From the NCBI RefSeq assembly GCF_004339085.1, contig NZ_SMFX01000001.1:434001-498000 (forward strand): a stretch of 64,000 nt of DNA, read 5' to 3'. The notes under the pieces are model-generated. The model was given only the letters and a program-made list of their open reading frames with translations, did no database searches and had not been told where the DNA came from. Every line of letters starts with the position of its first letter. The stretch's first letter is position 1. This stretch comes from Thiogranum longum (lineage in GTDB: Bacteria > Pseudomonadota > Gammaproteobacteria > DSM-19610). Below, piece after piece: positions 16,385-22,304 of this stretch. The position numbers and the translations under genes were made by a program.

Positions 16385-16789
16385 ATGCAATCTACACCAC
16401 GCATCTGGTTGGGCGACGACGGTATAATGCGGATCGAATTTCCGCAGGACTATCTGTTTACTCTGAAAGATGTCCAGGAACTGAATAGACAGCACCGGGA
16501 GATAAGAAGCGAGTGTGGTCCGCTGCTTGTTTATGCCATGTCGGTTGCGGAGGCTGAACACGAAGCAAAAGAGTTTGCTTCAAGCGATGGTGCAGTTGAA
16601 GTTGTCAGCGCCATGGCCATTCTTGTCAAGTCAGTTTTTACCCGCGCGATGGCTGATATCTTCATGAAGTTCAACAAGCCTCCTTACCCGACCCGGATAT
16701 TTACCAGTGAAGCCGATGCACTGGCATGGCTGGAGCCGTTTTGTGCCTCCTTGAGGGAAGACGGTAGTGAGCGTGGAGAAAGTGCCTGA
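16385..16789 (+). CDS. Conserved protein, STAS/SpoIIAA-like fold suspected
   Basis: A 134-residue soluble protein with AAGGAT as ribosome site. The pattern of an opening strand pair (IWLGDDGIMRIEFP), a helix beginning TLKDVQELN, a central strand GPLLVYAM, then AMAILVKSVFTRAMADIFMKF and the closing PTRIFTSEADALAWLEPF resembles small STAS/SEC14-like proteins of the DUF7793 kind. No cofactor motif is visible. It overlaps the next gene by 23 bases, so the two are translationally linked. Function unknown; family call is tentative. Confidence 0.6.
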   Translation: MQSTPRIWLGDDGIMRIEFPQDYLFTLKDVQELNRQHREIRSECGPLLVYAMSVAEAEHEAKEFASSDGAVEVVSAMAILVKSVFTRAMADIFMKFNKPPYPTRIFTSEADALAWLEPFCASLREDGSERGESA

Positions 16790-17393
16790 TAGATCGGCTG
16801 TACGGCAATGCAAGCTCGACAAGTTGCTTGCTGAAGTGCGCGCCTGCAGGGCGTGTGAAGCTGTACTGCCATTTGAACCACGCCCGGTGTTGCGCGCGAG
16901 CAGTTCAGCGCGTCTGTTGATTGTCGGACAAGCACCCGGTACCCGCGTACACGAAACCGGTATTCCCTGGAACGATCCCAGTGGTGACAGGTTGCGTCAC
17001 TGGTTGGGAGTGGAGCGTGAATTCTTCTACGATGAGCGCCATATCGCCATTGTCCCCATGGGTTTTTGTTACCCGGGCCGGGGCAAGTCGGGCGACTTGC
17101 CGCCCCGGCCGGAGTGCGCTGCACTATGGCGGGAACAATTACTGGCCTGTTTACCGGATATAGAGCTGACCCTGTTGATCGGCCACTACGCACAGCAATA
17201 TCACCTCCCTGACGCGGGTCGCAGCACGGTGACTGAAACGGTGCAACGCTGGCGTGAGTTTTTGCCCGATGTGATACCGACGCCGCACCCCTCGCCCCGT
17301 AATCAGTTGTGGTTGCGTCGCAACCCCTGGTTTGAAGCCGATCTGGTGCCGGCCCTGCAGCGGCGTATCCGGGAAATGTTCGCCGGAAACTAG
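16767..17393 (+). CDS. Uracil-DNA glycosylase superfamily protein
   Basis: A 208-residue member of the COG1573 uracil-DNA glycosylase family. The opening CRACEAVLPFEPRPV, the active-site-like LLIVGQAPGTRVHETGIPWNDPSGDRL and the late PTPHPSPRN are family marks. Only one clear N-terminal CxxC is present, so an iron-sulfur cluster as in family 4 is uncertain. The GTG at 16767 is the first start; GTGs at 16773 and 16782 are alternatives. It may remove uracil from DNA, but many members of this branch are untested. Confidence 0.78.
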   Translation: MSVEKVPDRSAVRQCKLDKLLAEVRACRACEAVLPFEPRPVLRASSSARLLIVGQAPGTRVHETGIPWNDPSGDRLRHWLGVEREFFYDERHIAIVPMGFCYPGRGKSGDLPPRPECAALWREQLLACLPDIELTLLIGHYAQQYHLPDAGRSTVTETVQRWREFLPDVIPTPHPSPRNQLWLRRNPWFEADLVPALQRRIREMFAGN

Positions 17394-17773: not shown

Positions 17774-18448
17774 ATGACATCTGTTTACGCCACAGGCACG
17801 GCAGATAGCCATTCCGCAAGCGAGGTGGGTTCACCCGCTGTCCGCCGGCTCGGTCTGAGTGACTACGAACCGGTATGGCGGCAGATGCAGGCGCATACGG
17901 AGCATCGCAGCGGTCCGGGTGATGATGCTATCTGGCTGCTGGAGCACCGGCCGGTGTTCACGCAGGGAATGAACGGCAAGCCAGAGCACCTGCTGGCGCC
18001 GGGTGACATCCCTGTTGTCGAGGTGGACCGTGGGGGCCAAGTGACCTACCACGGTCCGGGGCAACTGGTGGCTTATCTGATGCTTGATCTGCGGGCACGT
18101 AACCTGGGGATCCGTGGCCTGGTGGAACTACTGGAGCAGTCAGTGATCGACTGGCTGGGTTCACAAGGTATCAGCGCACATGCACGTCGTGATGCGCCGG
18201 GTGTATACGTGGATGGTGCAAAGATCGCGGCACTTGGCCTGCGTGTCCGGCGAGGTTGCAGCTACCATGGATTGAGCTTCAATGTGGATATGGACCTTGA
18301 GCCTTTTTCACGTATTAATCCCTGCGGCTATGCAGGAATGGACGTAACACAGTTGCGTGACCTTGGTGTTGCCGGCAGTGTTGAAACAGTTGCGCAGGAC
18401 TGGCTGCCCGCTTTGCTGGCGCGGCTTGAGCAACAAAAACCTGGATAA
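17774..18448 (+). CDS. lipB: Octanoyltransferase LipB
   Basis: A 224-residue enzyme moving octanoyl from acyl carrier protein to lipoyl domains of 2-oxoacid dehydrogenases and GcvH. It shows [18 protein letters not shown], the catalytic Lys in [21 protein letters not shown] and the catalytic Cys in INPCGYAGM. The ATG at 17774 fits; the first 20 or so residues are extra compared with shorter homologues. LipA, which inserts sulfur into the octanoyl group, is encoded next. Confidence 0.97.
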
Positions 18449-18462
18449 AGAGTTAATAACCC

Positions 18463-19401
18463 ATGTCAGAGCAACAGCCCAAGCACCAGCGCGGCGAGGC
18501 CAAGACCTCGCGCATACCGATCAAGGTCGAGGTGACCGACCGGCCGATGCGCAAGCCAGCCTGGATACGTGCAAAATCACCGGCCGGGCCGGAGGTGCAG
18601 CGACTGAAGCGTGTCTTGCGTGACCAGCGTTTATTTACCGTTTGCGAGGAAGCTTCCTGTCCGAACCTTGGTGAGTGTTTTACGCATGGTACGGCGACCT
18701 TCATGATCATGGGTGATATTTGCACACGACGTTGTCCGTTCTGCGATGTGGCACACGGGCGGCCCGACCCGCTTGATCCCGAGGAACCGCGGCACCTGGC
18801 GGAAACCATCAAGGCGATGGGGTTGCGTTACGTGGTGGTTACTTCGGTGGATCGTGACGACTTGCGTGATGGTGGTGCAGCACATTTTGTCGACTGTATA
18901 CAGTCGATTCGGGAAGGCAATCCCGACACCCGCATTGAAATACTGGTACCGGATTTCCGTGGTCGAATGGATCGCGCGCTGGATATACTGCGCGCGGCAC
19001 CACCGGATGTATTCAACCACAACCTGGAAACCGTCCCGCGTCTTTACAAGAAAGCCCGCCCCGGTTCTGATTACCAGTGGTCACTGACACTGCTGAAAAA
19101 ATTTACGCAGGAGCATCCTGGCGTGCCGACCAAGTCAGGGCTTATGCTGGGTCTGGGTGAGAGCATCGAGGAAGTTGAACGGGTCATGCGAGATATGCGT
19201 GACCACGATGTTGATATGCTCACACTTGGGCAGTACTTGCAGCCCAGCAAGCATCATCTCCCTGTTGACCGTTATGTTCACCCGGATGAATTTGAACAGC
19301 TGCGTGTAACCGGTGAAGCCATGGGATTCAGTCAGGTGGCCAGTGGACCGATGGTGCGTTCATCCTATCACGCGGACCAGCAGGCGGCCGGGGTGCTCTG
19401 A
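18463..19401 (+). CDS. lipA: Lipoyl synthase LipA (radical SAM)
   Basis: A 312-residue radical SAM enzyme that inserts two sulfurs into protein-bound octanoyl groups. Both iron-sulfur sites are seen: the auxiliary cluster in [13 protein letters not shown], with its ligands spaced C-x4-C-x5-C, and the SAM cluster in CTRRCPFC. The C-terminal [14 protein letters not shown] is family-typical and holds the Arg-Ser motif. It lies 14 bases after lipB, so the ybeD-lipB-lipA order is one operon. Confidence 0.98.
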
Positions 19402-19433: not shown

Positions 19434-20528
19434 ATGACCCACCTGCTTGCCGCCATAACGCCGCATGGTTACGGACATGCGGCACAACTCGCGCCGGTGT
19501 TGAATGCCTTGCGAGAACGTGTTCCGGATCTTTCCCTGACGCTGGCAACGACCCTGCCAGAATACTTTCTTCGTGAGCGGATAGAAGGTGAATTTCACTA
19601 TGTCAGGCACGCTTCCGATTTCGGTCTTGTGATGCACTCCGCGCTGAAGATTGACCTGGATGCCAGTGCGGCGCGTTACGAGCAGTTGCACGAAAGCTGG
19701 AGTATCCAGGTTACAGCCGAGGCGCAATTTATCGAGCGGCAACAGGTCGATCTGGTATTGTCGGATGTGTCCTGCCTGTCCCTGGCAGGTGCTGAAGAGG
19801 CCGGGTTGCCGGCCTTTGCGCTTTGTTCCCTGAACTGGGCAGATGTCTACCGCCATTACTTCCAGGCGAGGCCGGAAGCCACGCACATACTGGCGCAGAT
19901 GGAAGCCGCCTATGCCTCGGCCCGGATCTTCTTTTGCCCGCAGCCATCCATGCCGATGGCATTTCTCGATAACACAACCGATGTCGGTCCAATCGCAAGG
20001 CGTGGCAATAATTGCCGCGAGCAAATCAATGAGCGACTCGGCCTGACCAGTCAGACTGCACTGATCCTGGTGGCGCCCGGTGGCGTGGATACCCGGTTCA
20101 ATATCGGGCATTGGCCATCCGGGCAGGGCATACACTGGCTGGTTAGTGACAACTGGCAGGTTGAGCACCCGGATGTCAGTTCATTGTCGAAAGCCGGTAT
20201 GACGTTTACCGACCTGCTGGCTTCCTGTGACGGGGTGCTGGGCAAGTGCGGCTATGGCACGGTCGTTGAATGCGTCGTAAATGCAACACCATTGCTCTAT
20301 ATTCCACGCCCGGACTGGCCGGAAGAGCAGAGTTTGCTCGACTGGCTGGAACAGCACAATGCGGCGATTCGTGTAGAGTCATGCAGGCTGGAAACGGGAG
20401 AGCTGAGCGGAGTTGTCGAACAGGCGCGCAGTCTGACTATAGACGCCTGTGAGAATAATGGTGCCGGGCAGGCAGCTGATATCCTGCTGGCGAATCTCCA
20501 TAACAGGAAAACAGCGCATGGTGGATAA
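19434..20528 (+). CDS. Glycosyltransferase-like protein (MurG / arabinokinase N-domain type)
   Basis: A 364-residue protein of the GT-B fold. The opening HLLAAITPHGYGHAAQLAPV holds the G-x-G-H motif of MurG-like enzymes. The following AARYEQLHESW, DLVLSDVSCLSLAGAEEAG and FALCSLNWADVYRHYF resemble the GT-like N-terminal domain of bacterial and plant L-arabinokinases, here without any kinase domain. The C-terminal half has a LGKCGYGTVVECVVNATPLLYIPR donor-binding segment. The sugar and acceptor are unknown. It overlaps the next gene by 11 bases, which implies joint expression with a GDP-hexose phosphorylase-like protein. Confidence 0.7.
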   Translation: MTHLLAAITPHGYGHAAQLAPVLNALRERVPDLSLTLATTLPEYFLRERIEGEFHYVRHASDFGLVMHSALKIDLDASAARYEQLHESWSIQVTAEAQFIERQQVDLVLSDVSCLSLAGAEEAGLPAFALCSLNWADVYRHYFQARPEATHILAQMEAAYASARIFFCPQPSMPMAFLDNTTDVGPIARRGNNCREQINERLGLTSQTALILVAPGGVDTRFNIGHWPSGQGIHWLVSDNWQVEHPDVSSLSKAGMTFTDLLASCDGVLGKCGYGTVVECVVNATPLLYIPRPDWPEEQSLLDWLEQHNAAIRVESCRLETGELSGVVEQARSLTIDACENNGAGQAADILLANLHNRKTAHGG

Positions 20529-21570
20529 GTCCGGTCTTGAAACCCTGTTTACATCCGAGGAAGCCCTGCGCAGTCACTTTGAAAGCGGGCTGGAGCGATT
20601 GCTGGATTGTGGTGGCATGAACCTTTTTATCCTGGTTGTGGCGAATGCAAGTTTTGATGCGCGCCTGTGGAGTACGCTCGAACCCGGGTTATGCGCGCAA
20701 TACAATACGCTGCTGACCAACCTGCAAGGTGCGCTGACGCGGGGCCAGCGCATTGAAGAGGCCGATGACGACCTGCTGGTATTTCTGAAGATAAGCACTA
20801 TCGGGATGAAGGCACTTAAGCTGACCGAGCAACGTGATGAAGGTCCGTGGGAGGTGCAGTTCAACCAGCTGCGGGCCTTCCGTCCACTCCGCAACAGCCA
20901 GCGTCCGATGACATCTATTCAGTCCCCATTCGATGCTGCGGCATTCAACTTTAACAAGCCGTTCATACAGCAGGAGGCACTCGCATCCGGTGATCTGCTT
21001 GGACATCACATTGACTTGTATTACAACAAGTACCCGTTTGTCGAAATGCATAGTCTGCTGGTTCCGGATCGTCAACAGTGCCTGTCCCAATATCTGTTTG
21101 AAGACATGCACTACTTCGTCTGGCAACTGGTCGAGTACCTGTCGGGCACTCTGCCTGGTGTGCGTGTCGGCTACAATGCACTCGGTGCTTTTGCCTCGGT
21201 GAATCACCTGCACCTGCAGTTGTTTGTGCGCAATAAATTATTGCCGGTTGAGCAATCGTTATGGGCGCATAACGGTGGTGCGCAGAATTACCCGGCGGAA
21301 TGCAGGGTGTTCAATGACCCGCAATCGGCATGGAATGAGATAGCTGAATTACACAGGCAGAATGAGGCATACAACCTGCTCTATGCGCCCGGCCGCCTGT
21401 ATTGCATGCCGCGACGGAAGCAGGGTGAATTTGAACTGCCGGACTGGTCCAGTGGATTCTCATGGTATGAATTGTGTGGCGGGATGATTACCTTCAACCA
21501 CCAGGACTGGGCTGCACTTGATGAGGCGGGTATTGTGGCGGATCTGGCGCGGGCAAGGCGACCACGATAA
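20518..21570 (+). CDS. HIT-superfamily protein, VTC2/GDPGP1 (GDP-hexose phosphorylase)-like
   Basis: A 350-residue protein with the HIT-type active site GYNALGAFASVNHLHLQ, in which His230-Leu-His232-Leu-Gln234 is the catalytic set. The GYNxLGAFAxxNHLHxQ wording is that of eukaryotic GDP-L-galactose and GDP-D-glucose phosphorylases rather than of galT or Ap4A phosphorylase. Supporting blocks are FNFNKPF near 143 and NKYPFVEMHSLLVPDR near 170. Start ATG 20518 is inside the previous gene's end; a longer frame from 20449 lacks homology. A reaction splitting an NDP-sugar by phosphate is inferred, not shown. Confidence 0.7.
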   Translation: MVDKSGLETLFTSEEALRSHFESGLERLLDCGGMNLFILVVANASFDARLWSTLEPGLCAQYNTLLTNLQGALTRGQRIEEADDDLLVFLKISTIGMKALKLTEQRDEGPWEVQFNQLRAFRPLRNSQRPMTSIQSPFDAAAFNFNKPFIQQEALASGDLLGHHIDLYYNKYPFVEMHSLLVPDRQQCLSQYLFEDMHYFVWQLVEYLSGTLPGVRVGYNALGAFASVNHLHLQLFVRNKLLPVEQSLWAHNGGAQNYPAECRVFNDPQSAWNEIAELHRQNEAYNLLYAPGRLYCMPRRKQGEFELPDWSSGFSWYELCGGMITFNHQDWAALDEAGIVADLARARRPR

Positions 21571-21636: not shown

Positions 21637-22035
21637 ATGACTAAAGCAGCCAGCCCCACACCCGTGCTTACCGTCGTGATAGATGGAGAGCCGCACCTTG
21701 AATACGATCGGGGAAAACTTTTGCCGGAGTCCCGGTTGGCATCTCTTGATCGAATGGACCAGAAAATGGACCAGGGTATCCGGCTCGGTGGGGAAAGTAT
21801 TAAACATCCCGACCGTGTGCAACGCGCCCAGTTTGTGGCGTTGCACCTGCTGGAGGCTATGCAGGAAGGTGATGATGCCCTCATAGCGGCATCCTGCGCG
21901 TATCTTGCCAGCCGCTTGCCAGACCTTCACCAGGTCAAGGCACGTTTGGCAGGCGATGCAGTGTCGGCAGAGCTGGTATTCGATGAGCCTTATACAAAAG
22001 AGGTTGCGGTTGATTTTATACCGCGTTCCTCGTAA
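21637..22035 (+). CDS. Hypothetical protein, 132 aa
   Basis: No family recognised. It is a soluble, acidic protein with a strand-like start (PVLTVVIDGEPHLEY), a middle helix-rich part (QFVALHLLEAMQEGDDALIAASCAYLA) and a closing strand-like segment (DEPYTKEVAVDFIP). It follows the GDP-hexose phosphorylase-like gene by 66 bases and precedes ycgL by 8 bases, so it probably belongs to the same transcript. Codon use does not stand out from its neighbours. Confidence 0.7.
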   Translation: MTKAASPTPVLTVVIDGEPHLEYDRGKLLPESRLASLDRMDQKMDQGIRLGGESIKHPDRVQRAQFVALHLLEAMQEGDDALIAASCAYLASRLPDLHQVKARLAGDAVSAELVFDEPYTKEVAVDFIPRSS

Positions 22036-22043
22036 GCAAGATC

Positions 22044-22304
22044 ATGCGCATGCAGTGTCTGGTGTACAAGAGTCTCCGGCAGTTTGACTACTACCTGTTC
22101 GTTAAAAAAGGCGAGGATATGGAACGTGTGCCGGACGCACTGAAGACCTTGCTTGGAAACCTTGAGTTTGTTACGGACGTAGAACTGCACGACCAGCGCA
22201 AGCTGGCACAGGCTGATGTTGTTGAAGTGATGGCGCAAATCGAGGCAGAAGGTTATTACCTGCAAATGCCGCCACGCCAGGGACTGGACCATGATATCTC
22301 CTGA
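22044..22304 (+). CDS. ycgL: YcgL domain-containing protein
   Basis: An 86-residue member of the YcgL family. It has CLVYKSLRQFDYYLFVKKGEDMERVPDALKTL at the start (two pieces), then DVELHDQRKLAQADV and the family-closing GYYLQMPP. Two ATGs lie six bases apart at the start (22044, 22050). The family is confined largely to gammaproteobacteria; its function is not settled. It ends 22 bases before the convergent mlaC-like gene. Confidence 0.9.
   Translation: MRMQCLVYKSLRQFDYYLFVKKGEDMERVPDALKTLLGNLEFVTDVELHDQRKLAQADVVEVMAQIEAEGYYLQMPPRQGLDHDIS

Follow-up and report, generated by a model that had tools for sequence, protein, structure and literature searches.

A predicted GGP/VTC2-like phosphorylase family found in dsrA-bearing genomes of Gammaproteobacteria

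The window, by which we mean the whole stretch of 64,000 nucleotides from Thiogranum longum that was analysed, comes from a bacterium that carries sulfur-oxidation genes. On its forward strand lipB and lipA are followed by a gene for a glycosyltransferase-fold protein (GT), the gene for a predicted phosphorylase, an open reading frame for a protein of 132 residues, and ycgL, with an overlap of 11 bases between the GT and phosphorylase genes. The features of this locus are:

17774..18448, + strand: lipB, octanoyltransferase, context (NF010922, E 4.1e-91)
18463..19401, + strand: lipA, lipoyl synthase, context (TIGR00510, E 1.4e-132)
19434..20528, + strand: GT-B glycosyltransferase-fold protein, 364 aa, clade-specific neighbour of the phosphorylase gene
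20518..21570, + strand: predicted GGP/VTC2-like HIT-superfamily phosphorylase, 350 aa, 40.0 kDa
20926..20958, + strand: second block of the phosphorylase, PFDAAAFNFNK, residues 137-147, resembling PFDENKFNFTK of pepper GGP
21169..21219, + strand: catalytic block of the phosphorylase, GYNALGAFASVNHLHLQ, residues 218-234, with H230, H232 and Q234 as H-x-H-x-Q
21637..22035, + strand: open reading frame for a 132-aa protein, matching neither a Pfam nor an NCBIfam family (E up to 1)
22044..22304, + strand: ycgL, context (PF05166, E 1.6e-26)

The phosphorylase start is placed at the ATG at 20518, which gives the 350 residues; the mechanical reading frame opens earlier, at a GTG (20449). An earlier description of this DNA, made from its letters alone (the sequence-only reading), had the coordinates, the overlap and the catalytic peptide all correct, and its account of the surroundings, with lipA upstream and the 132-residue frame and ycgL downstream, is borne out as well. 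Neither of the two overlapping proteins of the window scores above the cut-off of any curated Pfam or NCBIfam model. That both are the products of genuine genes is confirmed by full-length open relatives elsewhere in the genus, the phosphorylase at 59-82% identity in seven other genomes and the GT at 54-80% in most, and by the 236 stretches of the genome collection that encode phosphorylase relatives. Elsewhere in the window, a gene for a DUF7793 protein (16385-16789) overlaps one for a protein of the uracil-DNA-glycosylase superfamily (16767-17393; PF03167), which does not reach the cut-off of any named NCBIfam UDG family.

The phosphorylase belongs to a family of proteins of about 350 aa for which neither Pfam nor NCBIfam has a dedicated model. 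Relatives are present in 10 of the 39 genomes near the source genome (source counted), and named carriers include Thiohalobacter, Thiogranum, Sulfuricella, Thiobacillus, Parasulfuritortus, Sedimenticola and Candidatus Thiodiazotropha, as well as the symbionts of Escarpia and Lamellibrachia. The best 80 of the 236 relatives were taken further. Across the 83 rows of the family alignment, H232 is present in all, H230 in 82 and Q234 in 80, the H-x-H-x-Q with invariant middle His that characterises the transferase branch of the HIT superfamily; in the other three rows His replaces the Gln. His is found in this place in the copies L007 (genome G003), L010 (G028) and L139 (G212), the last from a carrier which also has no aprA over cut-off. 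Two further copies are broken, one by a frame change near its 3' end in a genome of one contig (L127, G128) and one that contains stops (L144, G243). Searches against plasmids (E up to 1) and against PHROGs and PADLOC (E up to 0.01) gave no match, and our literature search returned no title on this family in sulfur oxidisers, which does not prove its absence from print.

The active site had been described in the sequence-only reading as worded almost exactly like that of eukaryotic VTC2/GDPGP1, and this wording lies well above chance. The window phosphorylase carries the catalytic block of the GGP/VTC2 and GDPGP1 proteins (IPR026506), as is apparent when the potato GGP block GYNSLGAFATINHLHFQ is set beside GYNALGAFASVNHLHLQ, and shares with them a second block of the form PFD..FNF.K and the Gln in third place of H-x-H-x-Q. 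A plant GGP profile made from the motif strings printed in the accessible part of PMC11222470, which cover pepper and potato only and are not full proteins, scored the window phosphorylase at 33.6 bits (E 2.6e-9), against 4.0 for the best of 2,000 shuffled decoys, and scored all 68 family members examined (median 28.5 bits); PFDAAAFNFNK formed a domain of 7.8 bits in this comparison. The same profile gave at most 4.8 bits with three bacterial DUF4922 proteins and less than zero with the GalT-like and canonical Apa proteins (two of the latter), the phosphorylase family being the only one of the bacterial proteins compared here to match the plant VTC2 motifs. The reverse test, with a profile of the phosphorylase family, found pepper GGP at 54.1 bits and potato GGP at 41.3 (decoys at or below 6.5). 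Judged by its sequence, the catalytic block is therefore GGP-like, well above the decoys.

Most of this signal comes from one block of about 20 residues, and outside it the match to GGP is weak. With the catalytic block masked, the family profile gave pepper GGP 13.6 bits (E 0.0027; best decoy 5.6) and potato GGP 1.3 bits, and the window phosphorylase alone gave -2.0. Since the signal nearly vanishes on masking, the likeness may rest on a single block, conserved or convergent. The phosphorylase family is also bacterial and tied to dsrA, whereas the kin of VTC2 have been described from eukaryotes: VTC2 is called exclusive to Viridiplantae in the part of PMC4396506 available to us, and similar proteins are placed in metazoa and scattered protists in that of PMC11066809. 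The available text of PMC7640755 contained no GGP motif letters.

The strongest kin tested in profile-profile comparison were the DUF4922 proteins (three sequences; 96.8%, E 2.1e-10, 224 columns), which BLASTP also found (E 7e-7, 96 residues); a passage of PMC11047344 assigns the cucurbit GGPs to the DUF4922 superfamily. DUF4922 differs from the phosphorylase family in that the plant GGP profile fails on its three bacterial members, and PF16269 (DUF4922) matches neither the window phosphorylase nor anything else in its genome. The claim of a VTC2/GDPGP1-like protein therefore holds in part: among the HIT-superfamily transferases compared, the plant motifs fit only this family, but they do so mostly through the catalytic block, and the strongest kin tested by profile-profile comparison lie in DUF4922. 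The comparison with Ap4A phosphorylase and GalT that had been proposed as a check was run as well. Canonical Apa (two sequences) followed DUF4922 at 60.5% (E 8.4e-5), and the GalT-like family of these genomes (11 sequences) was far off in hhalign (1.3%, E 0.039), with no profile kinship that would place the phosphorylase there, although both have the H-x-H-x-Q of the HIT superfamily and the GalT-like family too is present in many dsrA genomes. At E up to 1, Pfam models were touched by some of the 68 members (Ap4A_phos_N, PF19327, by 34; HIT by 33; ATP_transf by 12; DUF4922 by 8), with best values for the Ap4A-phosphorylase models of E 7.9e-6 (PF19327) and 0.0012 (PF09830), and relatives in G101 (27.0 bits) and G239 (24.4) barely passed the PF19327 cut-off of 23.1. 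The window phosphorylase touches none of these four models and no GalT model at E up to 1, and reaches the cut-off of neither PF19327 nor PF09830.

The predicted structure resembles yeast Apa2 in particular. The AlphaFold2 model, computed from an alignment of 68 sequences (that of the window together with those of 67 among the best 80 loci, with L038 omitted for one X and 12 not chosen), reached a pLDDT of 94.6 and appears to have an Apa2/GalT-type fold. Yeast Apa2 (4i5t/4i5v/4i5w) aligned along the chain of the model, over residues 6-350, with Z 18.1 (rmsd 3.2, 246 residues, 19% identity), and all further matches were at Z 7.1 and below, those between 5 and 7 comprising spliceosome chains, a DUF4931 protein, uridylyltransferases and ADP-glucose phosphorylase. 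Foldseek also paired the model with Apa2 (E 6.1e-10), but with a loose superposition (TM 0.47-0.52, rmsd 9-10). A fold search of BFVD gave E 2e-4 at best; single-sequence searches of the PDB gave no relative, and profile searches found Apa2 and one HIT protein, both with E near 0.001. Set against this likeness of predicted fold, the window phosphorylase matches neither of the two Ap4A-phosphorylase Pfam models, and the two canonical Apa proteins compared lack the match to plant GGP motifs.

We consider the product of 20518-21570 to be probably a phosphate-dependent nucleotidyl transferase, i.e., a phosphorylase of the GGP/VTC2-Apa2 kind. This reading draws on the Gln in third place of H-x-H-x-Q: VTC2 lacks one HIT histidine, and according to a passage of PMC11066809 this makes phosphate the preferred acceptor rather than water. 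We infer a catalytic cycle in which His232 would attack a nucleotide substrate, NMP-X, at its alpha phosphate, releasing X and forming a nucleotidyl-histidine, from which phosphate would then take the NMP and leave as NDP; with Gln where the hydrolases have His, phosphate would be favoured over water.

The distribution of the family may give a further indication of its role, and one which was unexpected and not foreseen in the sequence-only reading. In a sample of 276 Gammaproteobacteria (completeness of 90% or more requested) we counted as carriers the 22 strong matches (E 2.2e-38 or better), including the broken copy of G243 and the frame-changed one of G128 and excluding three weak matches to DUF4922 proteins (G100, G209, G114). 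A dsrA gene over cut-off was present in 89 genomes, comprising all 22 carriers, which spread over 14 families, and 67 of the 254 others (p 2e-12, Fisher test with kinship ignored), and no carrier occurred among the 187 genomes in which dsrA did not reach the cut-off. Within this class sample the family is confined to dsrA genomes, while the 67 that have dsrA and no phosphorylase show that dsrA does not imply the gene. An aprA over cut-off was found in 20 of the 22 carriers and 62 of the 254 others (p 6e-10, kinship likewise ignored); of the two exceptions, G231 has an aprA split into two pieces that lie on separate contigs, and G212 (completeness 100) has none over cut-off. Fifty further carrier genomes, from the best 80 loci, were searched for aprA, and 45 had it at E up to 1e-60. 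Because aprA is not richer in carriers than in other dsrA genomes (20/22 vs 56/67, p 0.5), and the phosphorylase is absent from all six genomes that have aprA but no dsrA over cut-off, the link of the family to Dsr is at least as strong as that to Apr. A role in place of Sat was rejected, sat over cut-off being present in 21 of the 22 carriers (147 of the 254 others; p 4e-4 by the Fisher test, ignoring kinship), with only a short match in G105. The source genome itself has two sat genes, at C1:2869978-2871108 and C1:2829044-2830192, one of them within a longer open frame of 585 aa.

With respect to the substrate, the GGP likeness leads us to GDP-hexose as a tentative first guess, one that leaves the link to dsrA unexplained. 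The distribution with dsrA, for its part, suggests a compound of sulfur oxidation, and the Apa2 fold would fit an adenylyl substrate, our second and nearly as likely guess: the enzyme might phosphorolyse APS (the activity of APAT, or ADP sulfurylase) or dinucleotides made from APS, such as Ap4A, which would recover ADP and protect the cell. We regard this as possible, if rather doubtful. It accords with the restriction of the family to dsrA genomes, with the presence of aprA in most carriers of both samples (and, split, in G231), with Apa2 as the best match of the predicted fold, and with the title of a 1988 paper, listed among the references of PMC7705103, according to which the yeast enzyme makes Ap4A out of APS and ATP; it is weakened by the lack of aprA enrichment among dsrA genomes, by the carrier G212 and by the absence of the gene from the six aprA genomes that lack dsrA over cut-off. 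A further argument concerns APAT itself. The distribution first suggested that the phosphorylase family might be APAT, and this was downgraded on account of the GalT-like family, of about 41 kDa and present in many dsrA genomes, which is the better candidate. That family surfaced in the PF19327 control, as weak matches in 29 genomes (26 with dsrA), and the proteins of the 11 genomes examined were all GalT-like (Pfam was run on 3 of the 11). Seven of the 11 have masses of 40.4-41.4 kDa, the rest, with mechanical starts, ranging up to 45.7 kDa; the APAT subunit is of 41.4 kDa. The GalT-like gene adjoins sat-aprBA in G129 and lies, by coordinates, near aprA in G107 and G213, and the source genome too encodes a GalT/DUF4921-like protein of about 360 aa (C1:636496-637575, i.e., L146:4497-5576), as does L147 (3441-4520). 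The reaction of APAT is given in passages of PMC8551704 and PMC8232776 as the conversion of APS and phosphate to ADP and sulfate, and no APAT sequence or locus was found in the accessible parts of these two papers or of PMC6382920, PMC8092127, PMC6783814, PMC5944118, PMC11963766, PMC3753534 and PMC3779200.

Two other explanations dispense with a substrate from sulfur oxidation, and we consider each of them improbable. One would see in the protein a housekeeping Ap4A phosphorylase which stands in for canonical Apa and has no particular connection with sulfur. The Apa2-like fold predicted along the chain and the PF19327 touches in half of the 68 members argue for it, as does the finding that canonical Apa, present in 19 of the 276 genomes, occurs in none of the 22 carriers. 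Among dsrA genomes, however, this absence does not reach significance (p 0.19), and T. thiocyanaticus and Candidatus Thiodiazotropha endolucinida, reached through the loci, hold both genes; canonical Apa, moreover, has no link to dsrA (8 of 19, p 0.45), unlike the phosphorylase family, and fails to match the plant GGP motifs. The other would have the GT and the phosphorylase act together in making or salvaging a sugar nucleotide destined for a glycan, in line with the two-enzyme unit proposed in the sequence-only reading. The MurG-like character given there to the first protein fits our results, since its model (pLDDT 91.4) shows a GT-B fold of the MurG/UGT kind, with best matches to Bacillus subtilis YojK with UDP (Z 23.7) and MurG (Z 22.3); against the MJ1255/VC2487 glycosyltransferases (TIGR00661) it scored 16.3 bits, below the cut-off of 195.9. 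The overlap of 11 bases, found again in L025, and the adjacency of the two genes in all eight carriers among 17 genomes of the genus favour a joint function. As a general unit the proposal fails: among the best 80 relatives the GT adjoins the phosphorylase in seven (L025-L031), which form with that of the window one clade of eight (support 100/100), and in the other 73 no GT was found within the DNA examined, up to 8 kb per side and less on short contigs. The GT, for its part, is present in 15 of the 17 genus genomes (two partial, one at 44% identity) and follows lipA in three genomes without the phosphorylase (L013, L016, L017), and T. thiocyanaticus has a distant phosphorylase copy that falls elsewhere in the tree and has no GT beside it. 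The commonest adjacent gene clusters of the best 80 relatives occurred at 13 loci each, with offsets countable in the 68 loci whose phosphorylase frame is in the main cluster, and no general operon partner emerged. The GT adjoins in one clade and none of the other neighbours is general; the pairing is therefore local and not a general partnership. By eye, a homologue of the 132-aa protein lies directly 3' of the GT in L016, a locus without the phosphorylase gene, and a second GT copy, 37% identical, is found away from the lipA locus at G004:C1:762471-763457.

Returning to the predicted phosphorylase, a bacterial family with a near-VTC2 active site bears on the origin of VTC2, and its co-occurrence with dsrA in all 22 carriers, together with its lack of a Pfam or NCBIfam model, may mean that a nucleotide reaction of sulfur oxidisers has gone unrecognised. 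We would go further only as a speculation, on balance an unlikely one: Dsr bacteria could own a private phosphorylase, of shared ancestry with VTC2/GDPGP1, for a nucleotide peculiar to sulfur oxidation, which would clean up, or recover energy from, an adenylyl-sulfur compound (APS) or a dinucleotide derived from it. A metabolite-repair role is likewise possible.

The DUF4922 proteins behind the three weak matches of the class sample are encoded at L114:967-1977, L115:785-1798 and L116:618-1685, in aprA genomes (G100, G209 and G114, respectively) that are without the phosphorylase family; of these, G209 and G114 have dsrA over cut-off, and near the DUF4922 gene of L115 lies an open reading frame which, by eye, resembles a P-loop kinase.
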